Shown: positions 4,201 to 55,308 of the stretch, one piece after another
Layout of the letters: each line of letters begins with the position of its first letter
Position numbering within the stretch: the stretch's first letter is position 1
From: Methanolobus bombayensis
GTDB taxonomy: Archaea > Halobacteriota > Methanosarcinia > Methanosarcinales > Methanosarcinaceae
DNA: 64,000 nt
Assembly (NCBI RefSeq): GCF_017873415.1
Contig: NZ_JAGGKD010000001.1
Span: forward strand, 62,001 to 126,000
Direction of reading: 5' to 3'
Program-made: the position numbers and the translations under genes
Notes under the pieces: generated by a model
The model's input: only the letters and a program-made list of their open reading frames with translations
Databases searched by the model: none
What the model was told of the DNA's origin: nothing

Positions 4201-4252
4201 CCACTCCCAAACTCTGTACTAAGAAACAAAATACTCTCTTAGTTTGGAGTGG
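4201..4252 (+). promoter_or_regulatory. Hairpin that would cover the ribosome-binding site of the A2M-like gene
   Basis: The arms are CCACTCCCAAACT at 4201-4213 and AGTTTGGAGTGG at 4241-4252. They are complementary over 12 pairs with one bulged C, and the loop is 27 bases. The 3' arm contains the Shine-Dalgarno GGAGTGG at 4246-4252 that serves the TTG start at 4259. If transcription begins upstream of 4201, the site is sequestered. If the TATA at 4189-4196 is used, the 5' arm is not transcribed and the repeat would act as DNA. Confidence 0.55.
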
Positions 4253-4258
4253 TTAAAA

Positions 4259-7200
4259 TTGAACTTAAAAGGGAAAAAAACAGGCTCTTTAATAGTTATA
4301 GTATCGTTGTTTGCAGTGATTATTGCAGTGATTATTTCAGGTTGTATTGGGGGTAGTGATGACCTTGCTTCCAATATAGCCGGGCAATGTGGTGGTCAGG
4401 TGGCTTCATCCGGTGATGAGTTCCTGATACTCGCACCTAAAATGCTCTTTTCAGGCGGTGAAAGCTCCGTCACCATGGCAGCTTTCTCAGAAAACCAACC
4501 GGTTGAACGATGCGTGGAATATACGCTAACAGATTCCAATAGCAATGAAATATCTCTTGTTCAGGCATCAACTTCAGATTCAGGAAATGTGGTAGCATCC
4601 TTTGAAGTACCTGATGTTGAAGAAGGCACTTACACACTCACTGCAAAGCCCACAGGTTATGACACTGAATTTGAGGCAACAGTGGAAGTGGTAAATAATA
4701 ATCCTCTTTTCATAGAAACTGACAAACCCATCTACAAACCGGGACAGACAATCCACGGAAGAATTCTCTCCCTGAACAACAACCTTGTACCTGTTCAGGA
4801 GGACATTACCGTTGAGATCACAGATTCCAAAGGTATCAAGGTTTTCAAGAAAGAACTGAAATCCAATGAGTATGGTGTCGCTTCCTTTGACCTTCCTCTT
4901 GCATCGGAACTTAACCTCGGTACATGGAAAGTAACTGCAACAGCAGGTGATTCCTCATCCATGGTCGACATCCAGGTAGATAAATACGTACTTCCGAAGT
5001 TCGATGTTTCACTGGAAACACCACAAGAGTGGTTCCTTGTATCTGACGAGATAACAGGTACTGTTTCAGCCAACTATTTCTTTGGAAAAGAGGTTGAAGG
5101 AGATGTGCTTGTTGAAGCCTCACGTTATGTGGGTGAATGGGAGCAGTACGCAACTTTCTCCGGTACACTTAAGAACGGTTCAGTTGAGTTCGAACTTCCT
5201 GAAGTTGAATATGCAGCCGGAACATACGGGGCAGGTGGTCAGGCAAGTCTGATGCTTAACGTGACTGTCACAGACACGGGCAACCACAGTGAGAGCACAA
5301 ATAAATTACTTACTATATCCCAATCACCTCTTGTTATCCAGCTGATCCCTGAATCAAGTACTATCAAACCTGGAATGCCACTTCAGGTGCTTGTAGTTAC
5401 ACAAGACCCCGGAGGTAATCCTGTTGATACTGAAGTCTCTGTAGAGGCAAGGCTCAGTGATGATTCTTACGAATCCACAAACGACGAGTTCACCGTGAGC
5501 ACTGATGGAGGTGTTGCAATGATCGAACTGGAAATTCCTGTAAACAGTACAAGACTGGACATATCAGCTCATGCAGATGATGTCTGGGCAAATGAGGAGT
5601 TGAATGCAGCTTATTCTCCAAGTGCCAGTTTCATTCATATAACTCAGACAAGTGAAGGAGTGCCCGAAGTTGGAGATACGATTTCCTTCCATGTTTATTC
5701 CACAAATCCGGGAACTGTTTACTATGATGTATTTGCAAACGGCAGGACAGTCTACTCAGCTACCAGTGATGAGAGTGATATCAATATACCTGTAACCCCG
5801 CAGATGAGTCCGCAGGCAAAGATTGTTGTTTACATGATAAATCCCAACAGTGAGGTATCCGTGGATGTGCTTCCATTTGATGTGGAATTCTCTACACGGG
5901 TGGACCTTTCAAGCTCCTTTGACACGGAAACCGCTGAACCCGGGGAGAATGTAACAGTTGGCTTTGATGCCGGCACCAGATCAATGATCGGATTTTCAAT
6001 TGTCGATGAGTCCGTATATGCACTCAGCGAAGGCAGGTTCAATCTCAAGCAGGTATTCGATGAACTGGAAAAGCGTTTCATGGAGCCAATGGCTGAATCA
6101 CATCCATACTGGTATCAGGAGGGTGCTTATGATATCATCGACAATGCCGGTATGGTTGTCATGGCATCTCCCGGAATCGAAGTACCTCGCGCGGAGGTTG
6201 AAGAGTTCGAGGTTGTTGCTTTTGCAGGTGCTGTGGACAAGGCCATGGATGGTATAGTAATGGAAGAAGAAGCTGTGGAAGAAGTTGCTGAAATGCCTAT
6301 GATGGAAGAACCAACCGATTCCGCAGAAGGCGACGATGGTGGGGAACTTGCGGAAGTACAGCGTGTACGTCAGTTCTTCCCGGAGACGTGGGTATGGATG
6401 CCTGAACTTCTAACAGATGATGCAGGCCTTGCAAGCCTTGACCTGACAGCACCGGATAGTATCACCACATGGAGACTTCATGCAGTATCTTCAAGTCCGG
6501 AAGGAATCGGGATTTCCGAATCCAGCCTGACGGTGTTCCAGGACTTCTTTGTTGATCCTGACCTTCCATATTCAGTTACAAGGGGAGAACAGTTTCCTGT
6601 ACAGGTGCAGGTCTATAATTATCTTGATGATGAACAGGATGTCAAATTGACTCTCTCACAGGCAGACTGGTTTGACATAATTGGTGACGATGTGCAGACA
6701 GTTACAGTGGATGCAAATGGTGTGGGATATGCCAGTTTCACAATCAGTCCAACAGAGGTTGGAAAACAAGTCGTTGAGATAACAGGCCAGACCACAGAGA
6801 GGGCCGATGCGGTGAGAAAGGCCATCATTGTTGAAGCTGAAGGTGCAACCCGTGAGGTAGTTGACAACGGAGTGCTCAGCAACGGTTCTGTAGAACTTGA
6901 TGCAACACTGCCTGCAGACATTGTTCCTGATTCAGAGATGATCCTTGTGAGCTTTACCCCGAGTATTGTTGCACAGAGTATAAACGGAGTGGATGACCTG
7001 CTTGGCATGCCTTACGGATGCGGTGAGCAGAATATGATGCTGTTCTCCACTGACGTTGAGGTATTGCGCTACCTGAAAGCAACAGGTCAGGATAATCCTG
7101 AAGTGAGGGCAAAAGCTGAGATGTACATAATCACAGGTTACCAGCGTGAACTGACATACCGCCACAGCGATGGTTCTTTCTCAGCATTCGGTGAGAGTGA

Positions 7201-8485
7201 TGAAAGTGGCAGCCTCTGGCTGACTTCATTCGTGCTTTCACAGTTCAGTGGTGCAAGAGATGTTACAACAATTGACGAGAATATTCTTTCCGAGTCTGCT
7301 GATTGGATAGAGTCCCACCAGCTGGAAGATGGTTCGTGGGAGCCTGTCGGGTTTGTTATTCACCAGGACATGATGGGTGGTGTCAGCGGAACTTACGCAC
7401 TGACAGCATACATAACCCTCGCACTGGAAGAATATGGTTCCGCAAGTCCTGATGTCATGCAAAAAGCCCAGACATATCTTGAGGACAATCTTGCAAGCCA
7501 GGATGATCCGTATGCTCTGGCAATCGGAACTCTTGCATTGCAAAAAATTAACAGCTCCATGGCAGATGAAGCTTTGACAGAGCTGCTGGCAATCTCAAAA
7601 AAGGACGATGACGGCACTTACTGGGGTTATGGTGATGGCGCGGTTCCTGCCCCACATGAAGATTACGGATATGGTTACATGGCTCCATCCAGCAAGAATG
7701 TGGAAACAACAGCCTATGCGACCCTTGCTCTCATTGAGGCAAACAACCCGACTGCAACATCTTCCCTGAAGTGGATAGCTGCACAGCGTAATTCCAACGG
7801 AGGATTCTCCAGTACCCAGGATACTGTCATGGCCTTCAGGGCACTGATGGGTGCAGCAGCTTCTGCAGGAAGGGATATTGATGCAACGGTGCATGTGATT
7901 GCAGATGACACTGAGATCAAGTCGGTTGAAGTGAATCAGCAGAACTTCGATGTCGTCCAGATAATCGAAATTCCTGATGGTGTATCAGATGTCAGGCTTT
8001 CCCTCGAAGGCATAGGCGACCTGAATTATCAGCTTGTCAGGCGTTTTAATGTCATTCTCCCGGATGTAATTGAACAGAATGAGATTGAACTTGATGTAGA
8101 GTATGATTCAACTGATGTTTCAGTTAATGATGTTGTAACAGTGAATGCTCATATCAAGTACAATGGAATCACTGGCATCGATGGCACTACAAGTTCCAGC
8201 GGAATGATGATAGTTGACCTTGCGGTTCCAACCGGTTTCAGTCCTGTAGCATCAAGTCTTGAAGCAACAAAAGCATCTGAGGAAAAGATAACCAGATACG
8301 AGATTGCCGGAAGGAAAGTAATCTTCTATATCGATGATATGCAGCCTGGTGAGGAACTGGATCTCAGTATGCAGGTGCAGGCAAAGTTCCCTGTGAAAGC
8401 GATTGTGTCAGAAAGTAAGGCTTACTCGTACTATAACCCAGAGGTTGTGGCTGAAGCAAAGGGAATGAATGTGACTGTAGTTTGA
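4259..8485 (+). CDS. Alpha-2-macroglobulin/complement-like thioester lipoprotein
   Basis: A secreted lipoprotein of about 1408 residues. The N-terminus has a hydrophobic stretch and the lipobox ISGC (Cys29). Then comes a chain of macroglobulin domains, including MG2 with ETDKPIYKPGQTIHGR, a bait-like acidic Met/Glu-rich stretch around residues 630-690, the eukaryotic-style RQFFPETWVW junction, the A2M domain (TAPDSITTWRLHA), and a thioester domain with YGCGEQNM (Cys921, Gln924). The helical barrel after it has GYQRELTYRH and VIHQDMMGG, whose His1035 aligns with the catalytic histidine of complement C3. A receptor-binding-like domain ends the protein. The start is TTG 4259 with GGAGTGG upstream. 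No pbpC partner is present, unlike many bacterial A2Ms. The likely role is trapping or tagging foreign proteases or surfaces. Confidence 0.93.
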   Translation: MNLKGKKTGSLIVIVSLFAVIIAVIISGCIGGSDDLASNIAGQCGGQVASSGDEFLILAPKMLFSGGESSVTMAAFSENQPVERCVEYTLTDSNSNEISLVQASTSDSGNVVASFEVPDVEEGTYTLTAKPTGYDTEFEATVEVVNNNPLFIETDKPIYKPGQTIHGRILSLNNNLVPVQEDITVEITDSKGIKVFKKELKSNEYGVASFDLPLASELNLGTWKVTATAGDSSSMVDIQVDKYVLPKFDVSLETPQEWFLVSDEITGTVSANYFFGKEVEGDVLVEASRYVGEWEQYATFSGTLKNGSVEFELPEVEYAAGTYGAGGQASLMLNVTVTDTGNHSESTNKLLTISQSPLVIQLIPESSTIKPGMPLQVLVVTQDPGGNPVDTEVSVEARLSDDSYESTNDEFTVSTDGGVAMIELEIPVNSTRLDISAHADDVWANEELNAAYSPSASFIHITQTSEGVPEVGDTISFHVYSTNPGTVYYDVFANGRTVYSATSDESDINIPVTPQMSPQAKIVVYMINPNSEVSVDVLPFDVEFSTRVDLSSSFDTETAEPGENVTVGFDAGTRSMIGFSIVDESVYALSEGRFNLKQVFDELEKRFMEPMAESHPYWYQEGAYDIIDNAGMVVMASPGIEVPRAEVEEFEVVAFAGAVDKAMDGIVMEEEAVEEVAEMPMMEEPTDSAEGDDGGELAEVQRVRQFFPETWVWMPELLTDDAGLASLDLTAPDSITTWRLHAVSSSPEGIGISESSLTVFQDFFVDPDLPYSVTRGEQFPVQVQVYNYLDDEQDVKLTLSQADWFDIIGDDVQTVTVDANGVGYASFTISPTEVGKQVVEITGQTTERADAVRKAIIVEAEGATREVVDNGVLSNGSVELDATLPADIVPDSEMILVSFTPSIVAQSINGVDDLLGMPYGCGEQNMMLFSTDVEVLRYLKATGQDNPEVRAKAEMYIITGYQRELTYRHSDGSFSAFGESDESGSLWLTSFVLSQFSGARDVTTIDENILSESADWIESHQLEDGSWEPVGFVIHQDMMGGVSGTYALTAYITLALEEYGSASPDVMQKAQTYLEDNLASQDDPYALAIGTLALQKINSSMADEALTELLAISKKDDDGTYWGYGDGAVPAPHEDYGYGYMAPSSKNVETTAYATLALIEANNPTATSSLKWIAAQRNSNGGFSSTQDTVMAFRALMGAAASAGRDIDATVHVIADDTEIKSVEVNQQNFDVVQIIEIPDGVSDVRLSLEGIGDLNYQLVRRFNVILPDVIEQNEIELDVEYDSTDVSVNDVVTVNAHIKYNGITGIDGTTSSSGMMIVDLAVPTGFSPVASSLEATKASEEKITRYEIAGRKVIFYIDDMQPGEELDLSMQVQAKFPVKAIVSESKAYSYYNPEVVAEAKGMNVTVV

Positions 8486-8552: not shown

Positions 8553-9005
8553 ATGTCTGTAAAGTACCAGAATGTTGTTCCGTGGTGACGCTCTTTTCCG
8601 GAATATGTTGATATGTTCGATCTGACAGATGAAGACCTGAACAAAACCATTCTGGGATGTGGTGACGGTCCTGCAAGTTTTGATTATGAAATGACACGAC
8701 AGGGGAAGTCGGTAGTTTCAGTTGACCCGATTTATAATCAGAACCGGGAATCTGTCAGAAATAGAATTGATGAAAGCTATGTAGAAGTTCTGGAACAGGC
8801 CCGGGAAAATCAGGAATAATTAATCCGGGGGAACATTTCTTCGGCTGAAGAACTGGGCAAGATCCGAATGACTTCCAGAAAATACATACATCTGGATGAA
8901 ATTATAAGTTGGTTAGCTTCACAGGGTTATGTTGTCAGTGAGGAAAAAGTGAACTATGAGTTTCATAAGGGTGGAAATACGATGTTGAAAATTATCCGTG
9001 TGTAG
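8553..9005 (+). pseudogene. Decayed SAM-dependent methyltransferase-like gene
   Basis: One frame from ATG 8553 to TAG 9003-9005 reads as a single family but is interrupted by TGA at 8586-8588 (after NVVPW, where a glycine codon would fit) and TAA at 8817-8819. The readable parts are the N-terminal methyltransferase half with the SAM-loop LGCGDGPASF and VVSVDPIY, and the C-terminal end (VNYEFHKGGNTMLKIIRV). From recall of the family, which is about 220-240 residues long, some 80-90 residues of the middle are missing between KIRM and the C-terminal helix, so there is also an internal deletion. The segment from 8613 is open and could be mistaken for a 68-residue gene. It lies between the terminator of the A2M gene and the mutS promoter. 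Confidence 0.75.
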
Positions 9006-9085: not shown

Positions 9086-11737
9086 ATGAGTAAAATAACC
9101 CCTGCCATGAAACAGTATTATGCAGCCAAGGAAGAGCATAAGGACGCCCTCATATTCTTCAGGATGGGGGATTTTTACGAGTCATTCGGAGAGGATGCCA
9201 AAACAATTGCTCAGGAACTTGAGATCACCCTGACAACCCGTGGAAAGAGCAAGGACGGTGAAAAGATGCCACTTGCAGGCATCCCTTATCATGCAATTGA
9301 CAACTATCTTCCCCGACTTATTAAAAAGGGATATAAAGTTGCCATATGCGAGCAGCTTGAGGATCCTAAGAAAGCCAAAGGCGTTGTGAAAAGAGGGGTT
9401 GTAAGAGTTGTAACTCCCGGAACTGCAATGGATTCCTCCATGTTTGCCGACTCGTCAAACAACTATCTCATGGCAATTTATGGCGAAAAGGAAGAATATG
9501 GTCTCTCATTTCTTGACATATCAACAGGAGAGTTCCTGACAACCCAGTTCAAGGACACCGTTCCTTATGATCGAATCGCCAGTGAGGTTGCACGCATGGG
9601 GCCTTCGGAATGTATTTTGCCACCATCACTTATTGAGGATTCACATCTCACAGAGCGCCTGAAAGAGCTTAAGATCATTATTCATGAATTTGACGAGGAC
9701 GCATTTGACCTGAAAATTGCTGAAAAGATACTTCAGGAACATTTCAATGTTTCAACCCTTGAAGGCATGGGGTGCAGTGAACTCCATCGCGCAGTTTCAT
9801 CTGCAGGCGCCGCATTAAAATATGCCACGGATACCCAGATGAGAGAACTTTCACAGGTGCAGTCGCTGAAGACTTATTTTGATTCGGAGTTCATGGTACT
9901 TGATGCAATTACTCTGAGGAACCTTGAAATTGTGAAGAACGTAAGAGGTGAGGGCAATGATTCTTCTCTCATCGGAGTACTTGATGATACTAAAACACCG
10001 ATGGGAAGACGACAGCTCCAGAAATGGCTGCTGAAACCTCTGGTATCTGTTGATGCTATTAATGACCGTCTGGACGCTGTTGCCTGGCTTAGCGATAACA
10101 CACTTATTCGTTTTGATATTCGTTCTCATCTGTCCTATGTGAAGGACATGGAAAGGCTTGTAGGTAGGGTCATGTACGGTAACTCCAATGCTAGGGACCT
10201 TGTGTCATTGAAGAAATCCCTTGAATCCGTTCCTCTTTTACTTGAATCTCTAAGCGGGTGTAAGGATGTGAATTTGCTGAACAGCACTGCATCACAACTT
10301 TCATCTTTTGAGGAACTGAATGAACTTGCAAAGCTGATAGACAGTGCCATTGTTGAGGAACCACCTCTCAGTGTCAGGGATGGAGGAATGATAAAACCAG
10401 GATACAATGAGCAGCTTGATGAGCTGTTCGATCTGTCAAAGAACGGTAAACAATGGATAGCGAAGTTCCAGCAGAAAGAACGTGACAGGACTGGCATAAA
10501 ATCCCTGAAAGTTGGTTACAACAAGGTATTTGGATACTACCTTGAGGTCACAAAGGCCAACATTTCCCAGGTCCCTGATGATTATATCAGGAAGCAGACA
10601 ATGACCAACGCTGAGAGATTCTACACTCCTGAACTCAAGGAACGTGAGAGTGCCATACTCTCGGCTGATGAGAAAATGGTGGCTCTTGAATATGAACTGC
10701 TCAGTGAACTTAACTCTATTGTAGCATCTCATTCAAGACAGCTACAGGAAACTGCTGCCCTGATCGGGACACTGGATGTGCTTTCTAACCTTGCAGAAGT
10801 TGCTGCCAATAATAATTACGTAAGGCCTGCGATGACTCCTGACTGCAGGTTGCTTATCAGGGATGGCAGGCATCCTGTGGTGGAGAACACAGTTCCTGGC
10901 GGTTTTGTTCCAAACGACACCGAAATGGATTGCACTGAAAACCAGTTCCAGCTAATCACCGGACCCAACATGGCAGGTAAATCCACATATATGAGGCAGA
11001 TCGCCATGATAGTCATAATGGCTCAGGCAGGTTCCTTTGTACCTGCATCCTATGCTTCCATAGGAATTGTGGACAGGGTCTTTACAAGGGTCGGTGCTTT
11101 CGATGACCTTGCAAGTGGTCAGAGTACATTCATGGTGGAAATGGTTGAACTTGCCAATATCCTGAACAATGCAACTCCAAAAAGCCTGGTGTTGCTGGAT
11201 GAGATAGGCAGGGGTACCAGCACCTATGATGGTTACAGCATCGCAAAGGCAGTTGTTGAGTATATTCACAATAAAGGGCGCGTGGGTGTTAGGTCACTTT
11301 TTGCCACGCACTACCATCAGCTTACTGAAGTTGCAGCCAAGCTCAAGAGAGTAAGGAACTACCACATCGCTGTAAAGGAGGAAGGCGATGATCTTGTATT
11401 CCTGCGTAAGATCGTTCCGGGCGCAACGGACAGAAGTTATGGTATCCATGTCGCAAGGATAGCAGGTGTTCCGCATGCTGTCACATCAAGGGCTAAAGAG
11501 ATCCTTGAGGACATCGAGGATGAGTGCATGCTTAGTGAAGAGGACCGCAAAGGCAGTAAAAAGAAACAGCGTAGCAGTGCTAAGTATACTCAGGTCGTAC
11601 TGTTCGATCAGGAAGCGACTTACAGTGAAAGCGCGCCTGATCCGGTTGTCGAAGAGCTTAAAAAATTAGATATAAATTCAATGACTCCAATTGAGGCTCT
11701 GAACAAATTAAATGAGATAAAAGGTAAACTTTCATAG
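9086..11737 (+). CDS. mutS: DNA mismatch repair protein MutS
   Basis: Full-length bacterial-type MutS of 883 residues. The N-terminal mismatch-binding domain has the Phe-x-Glu wedge (FFRMGDFYESFG, about residues 25-36). The ATPase has Walker A GPNMAGKST at about residue 626, Walker B LVLLDEIGRGTSTYDG, and the HTH dimer interface near the C-terminus, which ends PIEALNKLNEIKGKL as in bacterial MutS1. It recognises mismatches and loops and, with ATP, recruits MutL. Most archaea lack this pair; methanosarcinas probably got it by transfer from bacteria. The start ATG 9086 lacks a clear Shine-Dalgarno site. mutL is 1.5 kb downstream with one opposite-strand gene in between. Confidence 0.98.
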   Translation: MSKITPAMKQYYAAKEEHKDALIFFRMGDFYESFGEDAKTIAQELEITLTTRGKSKDGEKMPLAGIPYHAIDNYLPRLIKKGYKVAICEQLEDPKKAKGVVKRGVVRVVTPGTAMDSSMFADSSNNYLMAIYGEKEEYGLSFLDISTGEFLTTQFKDTVPYDRIASEVARMGPSECILPPSLIEDSHLTERLKELKIIIHEFDEDAFDLKIAEKILQEHFNVSTLEGMGCSELHRAVSSAGAALKYATDTQMRELSQVQSLKTYFDSEFMVLDAITLRNLEIVKNVRGEGNDSSLIGVLDDTKTPMGRRQLQKWLLKPLVSVDAINDRLDAVAWLSDNTLIRFDIRSHLSYVKDMERLVGRVMYGNSNARDLVSLKKSLESVPLLLESLSGCKDVNLLNSTASQLSSFEELNELAKLIDSAIVEEPPLSVRDGGMIKPGYNEQLDELFDLSKNGKQWIAKFQQKERDRTGIKSLKVGYNKVFGYYLEVTKANISQVPDDYIRKQTMTNAERFYTPELKERESAILSADEKMVALEYELLSELNSIVASHSRQLQETAALIGTLDVLSNLAEVAANNNYVRPAMTPDCRLLIRDGRHPVVENTVPGGFVPNDTEMDCTENQFQLITGPNMAGKSTYMRQIAMIVIMAQAGSFVPASYASIGIVDRVFTRVGAFDDLASGQSTFMVEMVELANILNNATPKSLVLLDEIGRGTSTYDGYSIAKAVVEYIHNKGRVGVRSLFATHYHQLTEVAAKLKRVRNYHIAVKEEGDDLVFLRKIVPGATDRSYGIHVARIAGVPHAVTSRAKEILEDIEDECMLSEEDRKGSKKKQRSSAKYTQVVLFDQEATYSESAPDPVVEELKKLDINSMTPIEALNKLNEIKGKLS

Positions 11738-11784
11738 ATACAAAATGCATCTCTTTAGTTTATTGTACTATCCTTTTTATCTTT

Positions 11785-12972
11785 TTATTGGTGGTTTCCT
11801 GAGCCAAGGCCTTGTTTTTGTAGAATCATCCACGCAATCAGTACGAGAACTCCGCAAACGAGAGTGATGGTTCCCAGTATCTGCATACGTTCCATCCATT
11901 CCTGTGATACCAGCCACATTCCAACTGCACCCAGGGTGAAATATGTGAATATAAGTAAAGAAGATGCAGCACCTGCATCCTTGTGTACCTGTTCAAGTAC
12001 AAGGTGGTTGCTTGGTGGTCTGCTGATGCCTATGGAATATGTGATTAAAGCCATTGGGAGTGCAAAGGTCCATGGGCTATAATGTCCGATTATAAGAATA
12101 AATGCTGCTCCAACAGCTATTCCTGCAAAACCACCTGTCATAAGATGCTTTGGATTTATTCGGTCGGTTAATTTGAGGCATGACATGGATCCTGCCATAA
12201 GTGCAAGGGCGTTGAAGGCGAAGAAGTAACTGAAAGTCTGCTCTGTCATGCCAAATCCATTGATGTACAGGACTGAGGATCCGGCAATGAAACTGTATAA
12301 GGGTAAAAGGCTTACTGACATCACAAGGACCATTACAATATAGTTCCTGTTAAGCAGGAGATCTACGTAGGAATGCATGACCTTTGATATGTGAGCCTTT
12401 GATGGCTCTTTCAATGTTTCAGGTGTTCGGATAACTCCCAGAAGTCCTATCATCCCCATTGCTCCCTGGGCGATGAATATCCAGTGCCATGTCATATATG
12501 CAAGTATCCATCCTCCGACAATTGGGGCAAACATGGGGGCAAGTGCCATGATTATGGCTATATATGCAAGTATCCTCTGTCTCTCATTACCTGAAAAGAT
12601 ATCCTTGGTCATTGCCATGGACAGGGATGCACTGGCGGCTGCTCCTGCTGCCTGAAGTATGCGGAAAGCTATCAATGAATTTACACTACTGGCAAGGGCA
12701 CAGAGTATACTGGCAATTATGTAAAGCACTATACCGGCTATCAGGGGTTTTTTACGTCCGTACCTGTCTGATATGGGTCCGTAAAAAAGAAGTGAGAATC
12801 CGTAGGTTACGAAGAAACCTATTAGTATCAGGTTGACAACTGACAGTGGCCTGTCCCATAAAACCGCAAGTGATGGAATAGCAGGCAATATCATGTCAGT
12901 GGAAAATGCGGGAAAAGCTGTCAAAAGAGCTAATAAAGGAACTATGTTTTTTAGTTTACCGGAATTATCCAT
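11785..12972 (-). CDS. MFS multidrug exporter, Bcr/CflA family
   Basis: A 395-residue major-facilitator protein with 12 predicted membrane helices. The N-terminal helix has the Bcr/CflA pattern FSTDMILPAIPSLA, motif A follows as YGPISDRYGRKKPL between helices 2 and 3, and RILQAAGAAASASLSMAM lies in helix 4 (motif B/C region). Members are proton-coupled exporters for bicyclomycin, chloramphenicol, sulfonamides or dipeptides. The substrate here is unknown. It sits on the opposite strand between mutS and mutL and shares a divergent promoter region with mutL, which may only be chance. Confidence 0.9.
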   Translation of the reverse strand: MDNSGKLKNIVPLLALLTAFPAFSTDMILPAIPSLAVLWDRPLSVVNLILIGFFVTYGFSLLFYGPISDRYGRKKPLIAGIVLYIIASILCALASSVNSLIAFRILQAAGAAASASLSMAMTKDIFSGNERQRILAYIAIIMALAPMFAPIVGGWILAYMTWHWIFIAQGAMGMIGLLGVIRTPETLKEPSKAHISKVMHSYVDLLLNRNYIVMVLVMSVSLLPLYSFIAGSSVLYINGFGMTEQTFSYFFAFNALALMAGSMSCLKLTDRINPKHLMTGGFAGIAVGAAFILIIGHYSPWTFALPMALITYSIGISRPPSNHLVLEQVHKDAGAASSLLIFTYFTLGAVGMWLVSQEWMERMQILGTITLVCGVLVLIAWMILQKQGLGSGNHQ

Positions 12973-13103
12973 GTAAAGCCTTCTTATTTGATGTTCCTTT
13001 CAGATAGCATGAAATGATATAATTCTATTGTTCATTATTCATATCTTTTCATCTGGATTTAATAATAATAGTAGGTAGTAGTTAGGAGTTTTCCAACGAA
13101 AAA

Positions 13104-13130
13104 ACAAAAATACTAACAACAAGATATTTT
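13104..13130 (+). promoter_or_regulatory. Upstream element of mutL shared with mutS
   Basis: Same 17-base block as before mutS (13104-13120), two mismatched bases, then the same GATATTTT (13123-13130). It lies 62 bases before the chosen mutL start, a distance compatible with a TATA box and a leader of about 35 bases. Confidence 0.6.
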
Positions 13131-13192
13131 TGCCGCAAAGGGTTAGATATTGGAATATACTTTTTATACTTGTCGTGGACAGGAAGAGGAAA

Positions 13193-15079
13193 ATGACAGA
13201 GAAATCATGTGACATGAGGAGTTCTAAAATACAATTGCTGGATGAGTCCACAATCAACAAAATAGCAGCAGGAGAAGTTATTGAACGTCCCGCTTCGGTG
13301 GTCAAGGAGCTTATTGAAAACTCCATTGACGCTTATGCAACCGATGTTCGAGTGGAAATAGGGGGGTATGGCACGAAAAGCATGTTAATTGTTGACAATG
13401 GGATTGGTATGAGCCATATGGACGCTTCGCTTGCTTTCAAAAAGCATGCCACCAGCAAAATAAGCAATATAGACGATCTCAATCACATTCTGACAATGGG
13501 TTTTCGTGGTGAAGCTCTTGCATCTATTGCTTCGGTGGCAAAGGTTGAACTGACCACCCGGCAGGAAGGAGATATTGAGGGGACCAGGGTAGTTGTTGAC
13601 AGTACGGGTGTCAAAAACATAAGTTCTGCAGGCACAGCAGTAGGCACCAGCATCCTTGTAAATGATCTATTCTACAGTACTCCTGCACGTAAGAAGTATC
13701 TGAAGAGTGCAAGGACAGAGATTGCACACATTGTTGATGTGGTGTCAAGAAATTGTCTTGCTCACCCCGATGTTTCGTTTACTCTGGTGATAGACGGGAA
13801 AGTTACACTGAAATCTCCGGCATCTGCAAAAATGCTGGATAGCATTGTTCACCTTTATGGTGCTGATGTTGCACGCTCCCTTGTTCCACTGGAATATGAA
13901 TCTGATCTTATCACTATTTCCGGCTATATCTCAAAGCCGGAATTAACACGAAGTGGAAAAGACCTGCAGGTCTTTTTGATCAATGACAGGCCTGTTTTCT
14001 CTAAACAGCTAAGTAACGCCGTAAGGCTGGGTTACTATACACTGCTTCCAAAAGGCCGCTATCCTGCAGCCTTTCTGACCTTTACAATCGATCCTGTGAA
14101 TCTTGATGTGAATGTACATCCTGCAAAGCGTGAAGTACGTCTGAGTCACGAGAAAGAGATTGAGAGGATGATCATTTCTGCAGTGGAAGATGCTCTTGGA
14201 AAGGAGTCACTTGTTCCTGAGGTTCAGGTTAAGAAGAAGGATGTTCCGCTTCAATCACGCTTTTATGAATCTAAAGTAGAACCAGACACCAGTGATTCTG
14301 AAAGTCCAGAGGACTTATCGGCTTCACAAGACAAACCATTTCTGGATACCAGCCCTGAAACGAGGTTAAAGGCTGCAGTCATCAAAGAAGAAAAGGAACC
14401 GTATCATTATCCTGCAAAGGATACTTATCGCCGTCTGAAGAAAAGTGAACGATTGCAGATGAATGTGACTTCCGATGAAGTGCCGGAGCTCAGTACGACA
14501 TTCAGTCCTTCGGATGTGAAGGTTTACGGTCAGCATTCAGACCTTTATATAATCTGCGAAATGGATGGAAAACTCATACTCATTGATCAGCACGCTGCTC
14601 ATGAGCGTATAATGTATGAACAGGTTCTGAGACAACAGGATATGAGCTGGCAGGAACTTATAACTCCGGTGACACTTGACCTTGGCCAGAAGGAGAAAGC
14701 TATTATTGAGGAGTTTATTCCACAACTTGAGGAAATGGGTTTTTCCATCTCTGAGTTTGGTCCTAAAAGCTATGTTGTAACAACAGTTCCCAGCATTTTT
14801 GGAAAGCTGGAGGATACTGATGTTATTCATGATATAATCTCAGACCTTCTTTCAGTTGGCAGAGTTAAGGAGGATACTGAGCGCTATGACCTTCTGTGCA
14901 GTACCATGGCATGCAGGGCAGCTATCAAAGCAGGTGCTGTGTGCAACACAAAACAGATGGAAGAACTCATACGTCAACTCATGAACTGCAACAATCCTTA
15001 CACATGTCCGCATGGCCGTCCAACTATGATTTCTTTCACAATGGACGAGCTGGCAAAGCTCTTCAAAAGGACTGGATAG
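13193..15079 (+). CDS. mutL: DNA mismatch repair protein MutL (endonuclease type)
   Basis: About 628 residues. The GHKL ATPase half has ELIENSIDA, VDNGIGM, GFRGEALASI and LFYSTPARKKYLKS. The linker (about residues 340-440) is acidic and low in complexity. The C-terminal dimerisation half has DQHAAHERIMYE starting near residue 465, the metal-binding endonuclease motif, with the partner motifs ACRAAIKAG and CPHGRP. It should therefore nick DNA, as MutL does in bacteria that lack MutH. The start ATG 13193 follows AGGAAGAGG; the 21 codons before it have no such signal. ATG 13214 is an alternative. Confidence 0.97.
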   Translation: MTEKSCDMRSSKIQLLDESTINKIAAGEVIERPASVVKELIENSIDAYATDVRVEIGGYGTKSMLIVDNGIGMSHMDASLAFKKHATSKISNIDDLNHILTMGFRGEALASIASVAKVELTTRQEGDIEGTRVVVDSTGVKNISSAGTAVGTSILVNDLFYSTPARKKYLKSARTEIAHIVDVVSRNCLAHPDVSFTLVIDGKVTLKSPASAKMLDSIVHLYGADVARSLVPLEYESDLITISGYISKPELTRSGKDLQVFLINDRPVFSKQLSNAVRLGYYTLLPKGRYPAAFLTFTIDPVNLDVNVHPAKREVRLSHEKEIERMIISAVEDALGKESLVPEVQVKKKDVPLQSRFYESKVEPDTSDSESPEDLSASQDKPFLDTSPETRLKAAVIKEEKEPYHYPAKDTYRRLKKSERLQMNVTSDEVPELSTTFSPSDVKVYGQHSDLYIICEMDGKLILIDQHAAHERIMYEQVLRQQDMSWQELITPVTLDLGQKEKAIIEEFIPQLEEMGFSISEFGPKSYVVTTVPSIFGKLEDTDVIHDIISDLLSVGRVKEDTERYDLLCSTMACRAAIKAGAVCNTKQMEELIRQLMNCNNPYTCPHGRPTMISFTMDELAKLFKRTG

Positions 15080-53761: not shown

Positions 53762-55195
53762 TTAATTTTCTCCTTTACTTCTTTTGAAAATATACATCGT
53801 AATTCCAAGAACCATTAGAGTAGCAAATATCCCAAATCCCGGGGTACTTTCAGATTCCGGCTCAGGCTGGGTTCTTTCATCTGCAGGTGTGGATGGGTCG
53901 TAAATGATCGCGGACATTTCATTCATGTCAACGATTGGAACTTCCGTTTCTTCTCCCAGCAGTTTATCGATAAGTTCCTGTGGAGCTGACCTGTATTTCA
54001 GGGCAGTTTCGACTGTTACAGGATAAACAGCATTTTCAGGAAGAACAAATGAGTGTTGCTCTGTTACAGTTTCTTTCGGCCCTATCCTGTTATCCTCGAG
54101 AATGCTTTCTGCAAGCCAGAAACTCTTTGTTTCCTTGCCGTCACTATCTCCCAGAATATTGTTGTATATCTGCTTCGCATCAACGATGTTTCCATCAATA
54201 TCAACGTTTCCGGCGTTGTATATGCTGTTTCCGTTTGCATCGGTGACTGTAACTTCCAGCCACATTTCCCTTATTTCGGAAACTCCTGTGGGAATATTAT
54301 GCCCGGCTCCGGTATTTGTTATTGATACATCAATAAGGACTTCATCTCCTGCGGATGCAACTTCAGGTGCTGATACTTCCATAGTGGCAGCTTTTTGTAG
54401 TCTCTCAACTGCCATTTCAGCAACATTGTCTGCACCAAACATTGGGGGGATCAGTGTATTTGCACCCACAATATCATGTGAAGATATGTGTTCTCTTTTC
54501 GGAGCACTTGAACTTGCACGTCCGGGGTTTGCTTTGAATTCGGTTATTCCTTCTGTCATGTGACAGTCCTGGCACACTACATCTTCTTCAGCATACTGAC
54601 TTTCTTTCCAGGTGGAATATGTATCGTCAATAACAAGTCCGTTAACAGGATTAATCACCTGATGGCACATTCCACAGTATTCTGACTGAGTGTAAAGCTC
54701 GAGGTATTCAGATTTATGATAGGCATCTCTTGAATCATTGAATGGTCCCCATTTTGTCTCTCCCGGAGTTACTGTGAATGGTGCGTTTCCCGTACCATTG
54801 CTTCCGGATACTACGTGGCAGAAATCACACTGTACTCCAAGTTTTGAAATATCAGACATTTCTGAACCATCAATTGGTGGGATCTCTCCACTGACAACTC
54901 CAATGGGTGTGTGACAGCGTGAGCAGAATTCATCCAGCGCACCATCTGTGTCATCACTTGCGATCTTTACTTCTTCAAGATAGAAAGGGTCAAGATATGC
55001 GTTAAAGTGCATTGTTCCTTCCCAGTCAGCGTAAATGATCGCATGACATTGTCTGCATTTACTTTCATAATCAAAATCTTCTGAACTGAATTCTCCTGCC
55101 TGGGTTGCAGGTGTTGCATTTGCAAAGTTCGCACTGATAAATAATATCATTATAATCGCAAAAAACAAACTACCTTTTACCAAATTCCCCCTCAT
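53762..55195 (-). CDS. Cell-surface pentaheme cytochrome c with PGF-CTERM anchor
   Basis: About 477 residues. A signal peptide (hydrophobic 10-25, ending ANA) is followed by five heme motifs at about C47-H51, C91-H95, C123-H127, C174-H178 and C208-H212, all in the first 215 residues. The middle (about 270-420) is a beta-rich domain with VLIDVSITNTGAGHNIPTG. The end is PGFGIFATLMVLG, then a basic tail, which is the PGF-CTERM sorting signal for archaeosortase A. It is similar in layout to MmcA-type methanosarcinal cytochromes but has five classic motifs. The start ATG 55195 follows GGAGAGGAC; a TTG at 55210 is less likely. Confidence 0.92.
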   Translation of the reverse strand: MRGNLVKGSLFFAIIMILFISANFANATPATQAGEFSSEDFDYESKCRQCHAIIYADWEGTMHFNAYLDPFYLEEVKIASDDTDGALDEFCSRCHTPIGVVSGEIPPIDGSEMSDISKLGVQCDFCHVVSGSNGTGNAPFTVTPGETKWGPFNDSRDAYHKSEYLELYTQSEYCGMCHQVINPVNGLVIDDTYSTWKESQYAEEDVVCQDCHMTEGITEFKANPGRASSSAPKREHISSHDIVGANTLIPPMFGADNVAEMAVERLQKAATMEVSAPEVASAGDEVLIDVSITNTGAGHNIPTGVSEIREMWLEVTVTDANGNSIYNAGNVDIDGNIVDAKQIYNNILGDSDGKETKSFWLAESILEDNRIGPKETVTEQHSFVLPENAVYPVTVETALKYRSAPQELIDKLLGEETEVPIVDMNEMSAIIYDPSTPADERTQPEPESESTPGFGIFATLMVLGITMYIFKRSKGEN

Positions 55196-55308
55196 GTCCT
55201 CTCCTCTCAACTATAATCTTATTTTATGTGCTAAAAGAACTGACTGACATTTATTAGGCAGTTTCTTTCAGCAAATCAGTAAAAGGGACAAAGTCCCTAT
55301 TTATTCGT

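Follow-up and report, generated by a model that had tools for sequence, protein, structure and literature searches.

A thioester-containing protein of the CD109/A2ML1 type in Methanolobus bombayensis and its prokaryotic relatives

We analyzed a 64,000-nucleotide stretch of the genome of the methanogenic archaeon Methanolobus bombayensis (contig NZ_JAGGKD010000001.1, positions 62,001 to 126,000; referred to here as the window, to which all coordinates refer), with a focus on the gene at 4259-8485 of the forward strand. This open reading frame (ORF) encodes a complete thioester-containing/alpha-2-macroglobulin (A2M) protein. It begins at a TTG codon, runs uninterrupted over 1408 residues, and ends with a stop codon at 8483-8485, while a Shine-Dalgarno-like GGAGTGG on the same strand (4246-4252) lies six bases before the TTG at 4259. 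An alternative in-frame TTG at 4244 would give an ORF of 1413 residues. An earlier reading of this DNA, made from its letters alone (the sequence-only reading), described the product as a surface-anchored, complement-like protein with a C3-type catalytic histidine. The ORF is real, and the residue numbers given there for Cys29, Cys921, Gln924, and His1035, as well as the spacing of 114 residues between Cys921 and His1035, are all correct.

All features of the protein described here are encoded on the forward strand. A signal peptide and the lipobox ISGC with Cys29 are encoded at 4259-4345, and Cys29 is kept, within SGC or AGC, in nearly all Methanosarcinaceae orthologues, in agreement with the lipobox proposed earlier. 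Seven A2M-family domains (MG2, MG3, MG4, BRD, A2M, TED, and A2M_recep) were found by Pfam in order and above curated cut-offs. MG2 (PF01835, E 2.8e-23) spans residues 150-235 (4706-4963) and carries KPIYKPGQT, A2M_BRD (PF07703, E 7e-24) spans residues 460-589 (5636-6025), and A2M/MG7 (PF00207, E 2.3e-30) spans residues 710-799 (6386-6655), with FFPETWVW starting at residue 706. The thioester domain (TED; PF07678, E 5e-79) covers residues 903-1196 (6965-7846), includes the motif GCGEQ at residues 920-924 (7016-7030) and the codon of His1035 within VIHQDMMGG (7361-7363), and is followed by an MG8/receptor-binding-type domain at residues 1313-1398 (8195-8452; PF07677, E 6.8e-16). An acidic, hypervariable bait region (residues 641-697; 6179-6349) and a plug motif, RQFF (residues 704-707; 6368-6379), lie between BRD and TED. 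Since Cys29, Cys44, Cys85, and Cys921 are the only cysteines of the whole protein, Cys921 is free for the thioester. Anaphylatoxin and C345C/NTR domains were not found in a Pfam scan at E values up to 1; the label complement-like was thus overstated, the nearest proteins being CD109, A2ML1, and A2M.

Similarity to solved structures extends, by sequence, far beyond chance. When the whole protein was compared to the PDB with phmmer, A2M scored 417 bits, CD109 403, A2ML1 381, mosquito TEP1 308, C4 301, and C3 270. The TED alone was nearest to CD109 (184 bits, compared to about 96 for C3). A predicted model of 1200 residues (predicted local distance difference test, pLDDT, 77.6; predicted template modelling score, pTM, 0.52) had native human CD109 as its best match (E 1.3e-73, 25% identity) with A2ML1 next, and a model of the TED (pLDDT 84, pTM 0.85) reached a template modelling score of 0.85 to the native CD109 TED and about 0.77 to C3d, for which the human sequence used is fully identical to the PDB entry. 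Low pLDDT at model residues 440-505 corresponds to protein residues 648-713, the bait area. Human CD109, which is glycosylphosphatidylinositol (GPI)-anchored and solved in its native state (8s3o), is therefore the best fold match of the archaeal protein, and it shares the domain order, GCGEQNM, the 114-residue spacing to the histidine, the plug Arg/Phe, and membrane anchoring. The archaeal protein differs from CD109 in having a lipobox in place of the GPI anchor, only four cysteines, and an acidic bait of 42-65 residues in archaea; identity is 25% overall and 37% in the TED. Architecture and bait logic are also common to human A2ML1 and A2M. A2ML1 is a monomer with a catalytic histidine (PMC9156758), while A2M is tetrameric and carries Asn in place of the histidine, unlike the membrane-anchored archaeal protein. 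The sequence-only reading held that GYQRELTYRH matches human A2M almost word for word; the segments are similar, but the human GYQRQLNYKH agrees at 7 of 10 positions, so the wording was generous. Complement C3 does contain VIHQEMIGG, as stated there, and shares the TED fold. C3 orthology was nevertheless dropped, since the C3 domains are missing and the scores are lower (270 bits compared to 417 for A2M).

We aligned 121 distinct prokaryotic sequences with human CD109 and A2M (123 rows). Gly920, Cys921, Glu923, and Gln924 are invariant in all 123 rows, which is partly by construction given that loci were chosen by a GCGEQN pattern. The 120 rows that extend over Arg704 and Phe707, among them CD109 and A2M, all carry these two residues. 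Their counterparts in A2ML1, Arg730 and Phe733, are strictly conserved among human family members, and Tyr732/Phe733 of A2ML1 form the plug that couples bait cleavage to conformational change (PMC9156758). Residue 1035 is histidine in 119 of the 123 rows (118 of the 121 prokaryotic ones); in A2ML1 this histidine yields an acyl-imidazole that reacts not only with amines but also with hydroxyls (PMC9156758). Since the histidine is near-universal in prokaryotic relatives and also present in CD109 and A2ML1, again 114 residues after the cysteine (116 in C3), it is a general feature of the class rather than a C3 signature, and the term C3-type was too narrow. The gapless spacing identical to that of CD109 and A2ML1 makes it likely that His1035 reaches the thioester. 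The rows without histidine are human A2M and two bacterial loci, L107 and L120, with Asn, and a third, L102, with Asp; these three are thioester proteins of Chloroflexota/SAR202 type. L102 is a lone locus labelled 'Deltaproteobacteria' that clusters with a SAR202 sequence and whose binning may be wrong. Human C4A carries Asp at the catalytic histidine position. The natural variants in SAR202-type bacteria thus parallel human A2M (Asn) and C4A (Asp).

The acidic stretch pointed out by the sequence-only reading (residues 641-697) has bait-like behavior, as a variable, exposed segment flanked by the two conserved parts of MG6. Among Methanosarcinaceae orthologues it is the sole hypervariable, indel-rich segment, with a mean pairwise identity of 32% compared to 54-82% in other domains, and bacterial relatives show the same pattern (32% compared to 41-66%). 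The nonsynonymous rate (dN) of the bait is 0.47 compared to 0.04-0.19 in the MG, TED, and MG8 domains, about 8-fold the TED value (0.057). Omega is 0.03-0.13 in those domains, indicating strong purifying selection, and 0.29 on average in the bait; positive selection in the bait was accordingly rejected. In archaea, the bait contains 26% Asp plus Glu and 5% Lys/Arg. Since the bait is acidic with few Lys/Arg, its composition suggests that trypsin-like proteases are unlikely to be its main trigger.

These data suggest that the protein probably acts as a covalent trap of the CD109/A2ML1 type, anchored in the membrane and sprung by proteases, a reading that rests on the observed architecture, residue conservation, bait evolution, and tree position. 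The remaining steps, namely thioester formation, cleavage, conformational change, and the target, we infer as follows. The lipoprotein would be held via Cys29 at the external side of the archaeal membrane, with the Cys921-Gln924 thioester buried and the Arg704/Phe707 plug locking the MG ring in the resting state. A foreign or stray endopeptidase would cut the exposed bait (about residues 641-697), upon which the plug would be released and the TED would swing out. His1035 would then attack the thioester, and the resulting acyl-imidazole would react with a hydroxyl or amine on the protease (or on its carrier), thereby inactivating or tethering it. Covalent attachment to proteases, as proposed by the sequence-only reading, is a fair inference, while its further targets, viruses and rival cells, are without support. 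Several points weigh against the trap. The long-chain model reaches a pTM of only 0.52, leaving the bait and inter-domain placement uncertain; with an omega of 0.29, the bait may have diversified because constraint was relaxed and not through an arms race; the protein has no known protease partner; and in the phylum sample several other genera of the family lack the gene in all of their listed genomes.

A complement-like opsonin or tag, in which the activated protein or a fragment attaches via hydroxyls to surfaces such as rival cells or viruses and not to the protease, would draw on the same surface anchoring and on His1035, which permits ester formation in this family (PMC9156758). We consider this unlikely, given that anaphylatoxin and C345C domains are missing, that a lipid anchor is ill-suited to diffusion to other cells, that the neighborhood holds no convertase-like or receptor genes, and that the closest structures are inhibitors and CD109 rather than C3. 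A surface anchor and a reactive bond could equally serve a structural or adhesive role, in which the thioester cross-links envelope material of the cell itself (S-layer, biofilm) with no protease involved; Gram-positive bacteria have thioester adhesins, which offer a precedent. However, protease gating is implied by the proximity of a hypervariable bait to a plug whose Arg and Phe are invariant, and native CD109/A2ML1 have the same fold, so that such a role appears quite improbable.

We asked whether the gene might instead be an ordinary YfhM-type bacterial A2M acquired by the methanogen. E. coli YfhM (ECAM, a type I bacterial A2M) is likewise a thioester-bearing lipoprotein of the A2M family, and a study that found archaea to have TED proteins placed, in its accessible part, a Methanolobus psychrophilus homologue, WP_015053894.1, close to bacterial A2Ms and attributed it to probable horizontal gene transfer (PMC8416519). 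By its genus rather than by sequence comparison, WP_015053894.1 is very probably orthologous to the M. bombayensis gene; going by that part of the study, archaeal orthologues are already known, although the animal-type class is not separated from YfhM there and the histidine and plug go unmentioned. A TED tree that included YfhM-type outgroups places YfhM, Chloroflexota YfhM-like proteins, and haloarchaeal A2Ms far outside and the Methanolobus protein in a Methanosarcinales clade, with animals, bacteria, and a few other archaea on the other side. The long-chain model matches ECAM far behind CD109 (E 1.9e-51, 14% identity), a TED model scores E. coli YfhM at 15 bits compared to 476 for the Methanolobus protein, the histidine and motif differ, and Chloroflexota hold both classes with clearly bimodal scores. 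YfhM-type A2Ms are typically paired with pbpC (PMC3328433). The absence of pbpC noted by the sequence-only reading is borne out, as the genome has no peptidoglycan transglycosylase and hence no such pairing, which is trivial for an archaeon. YfhM membership was dropped, and a YfhM-type origin is very improbable. The phylogeny, the PDB comparison, and the fold match agree with the earlier description of an animal-type layout, surface anchored and with a catalytic histidine, outside the YfhM-type A2Ms. A firm placement among those A2Ms, which the sequence-only reading had named as a refutation, is not what the tree shows.

Of 24 sampled congeners, 22 retain the gene, which also occurs in other Methanosarcinales, with Methanococcoides and Methanomethylovorans as close named relatives; in the phylum sample it is present in all eight listed genomes of a second genus of the family (g15). 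Our data indicate that it is vertically kept in Methanosarcinaceae and is an ordinary, intact gene, old in these methanogens, and a genuine superfamily member of the CD109/A2ML1 type. In two congeners (L161 in G012, L162 in G015), the thioester gene is split by a stop or frame break, reflecting a pseudogene or an assembly error. Nor is the gene peculiar to this methanogen, a point on which the sequence-only reading needs correcting. A scan of 84,980 species genomes for a GCGEQNM-type pattern, confirmed with tblastn, gave 169 loci, and the best 80 of these were mostly from Chloroflexota (many Dehalococcoidia), with some from Actinomycetota and some from archaea. Prokaryotic members show the same Pfam layout as the Methanolobus protein. 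In a sample of 301 Chloroflexota genomes, TED scores were bimodal: 15 (about 5%) combined an E value under 1e-80 with an ORF of about 1400-1500 residues, one was intermediate, and the rest were weak, many with ORFs of about 2000 residues. The intermediate locus (L167 in G632) encodes 1659 residues, stands between the animal type and the YfhM type, is a useful outgroup, and possibly represents a third class. Among 246 Actinomycetota genomes, strong matches occurred in two, one of which was the starting genome. No relative was found in IMG/VR, and viral carriage was dropped. We found no paper describing the animal-type class in Chloroflexota in the openly searchable literature, subscription literature lying outside the search.

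A careful TED tree supported Methanosarcinales at 100/100 and resolved the remainder poorly. In a near-full-length tree rooted on L167, Methanosarcinales were supported at 99/99 and all other members at 100/100, and the animals (human CD109 and A2M) fell within the bacterial set at 91/94. Approximately unbiased (AU) tests rejected animals outside all prokaryotic members (p=0.0016) and gave p=0.019 for bacteria without animals; a sister relationship of the methanogen clade and animals was rejected as well (p=0.0018). Dropping the outgroup or the animals kept this arrangement, while the exact attachment point of the animals shifted. The eukaryotes in these trees are vertebrates only (insect TEP1, C4, and C5 were left out), the animals and the outgroup sit on long branches, composition varies among sequences, and several archaeal loci come from metagenome-assembled genomes. 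The position of the methanogen clade, which does not fall inside the sampled bacteria, gives no support to a recent transfer from Chloroflexota; an ancient one may have occurred in either direction.

Given the caveat of long branches, the trees point to the animal family being of prokaryotic origin; the wider family of prokaryotes appears to be the older of the two. We tentatively propose, as a scenario that may well prove wrong, that animal complement, A2M, and CD109 derive from an animal-type thioester protein of prokaryotes, whose nearest present-day forms are in Chloroflexota and Actinomycetota. An early animal, or an ancestor of animals, would have acquired it with bait, plug, and catalytic histidine already present, the methanogen clade being an earlier-branching, independent archaeal lineage of the same invention. 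An earlier hypothesis, to judge by its title and the papers citing it, reportedly held that bacterial A2Ms were acquired from metazoans. A structural study argued for a beginning of the A2M family in animals, in the form of a CD109-like protein (PMC9156758). A prokaryotic class with the complete trigger machinery and with vertebrate sequences inside it points opposite to the animal-origin view. The main value of the gene therefore lies in the prokaryotic class behind it and in the bearing of that class on the origin of complement-type proteins, which can thereby be tested through biochemical work on bacteria and archaea. As models of the trap, small prokaryotic members with few disulfides could be convenient.

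Clustering of the gene neighborhoods of 98 loci revealed no conserved functional partner, only housekeeping synteny (mutS/mutL, WrbA-like, and ABC genes), and a dedicated partner gene was dropped. The gene order within the genus is usually WrbA-like flavoprotein, thioester gene, mutS; the thioester gene is also upstream of mutS in Methanococcoides-like genomes, and mutS is downstream of it in most Methanosarcinaceae loci examined. In the window, archaeal mutS and mutL occupy 9086-15079 with an opposite-strand major facilitator superfamily transporter gene between them. A methyltransferase-like remnant (ILGCGDGPASF...), broken by in-frame TGA and TAA codons, lies between the thioester gene and mutS (8557-9004). 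Farther along, at 53762-55210, the window encodes a multiheme cytochrome-like secreted protein with several CxxCH motifs and a C-terminal membrane anchor.

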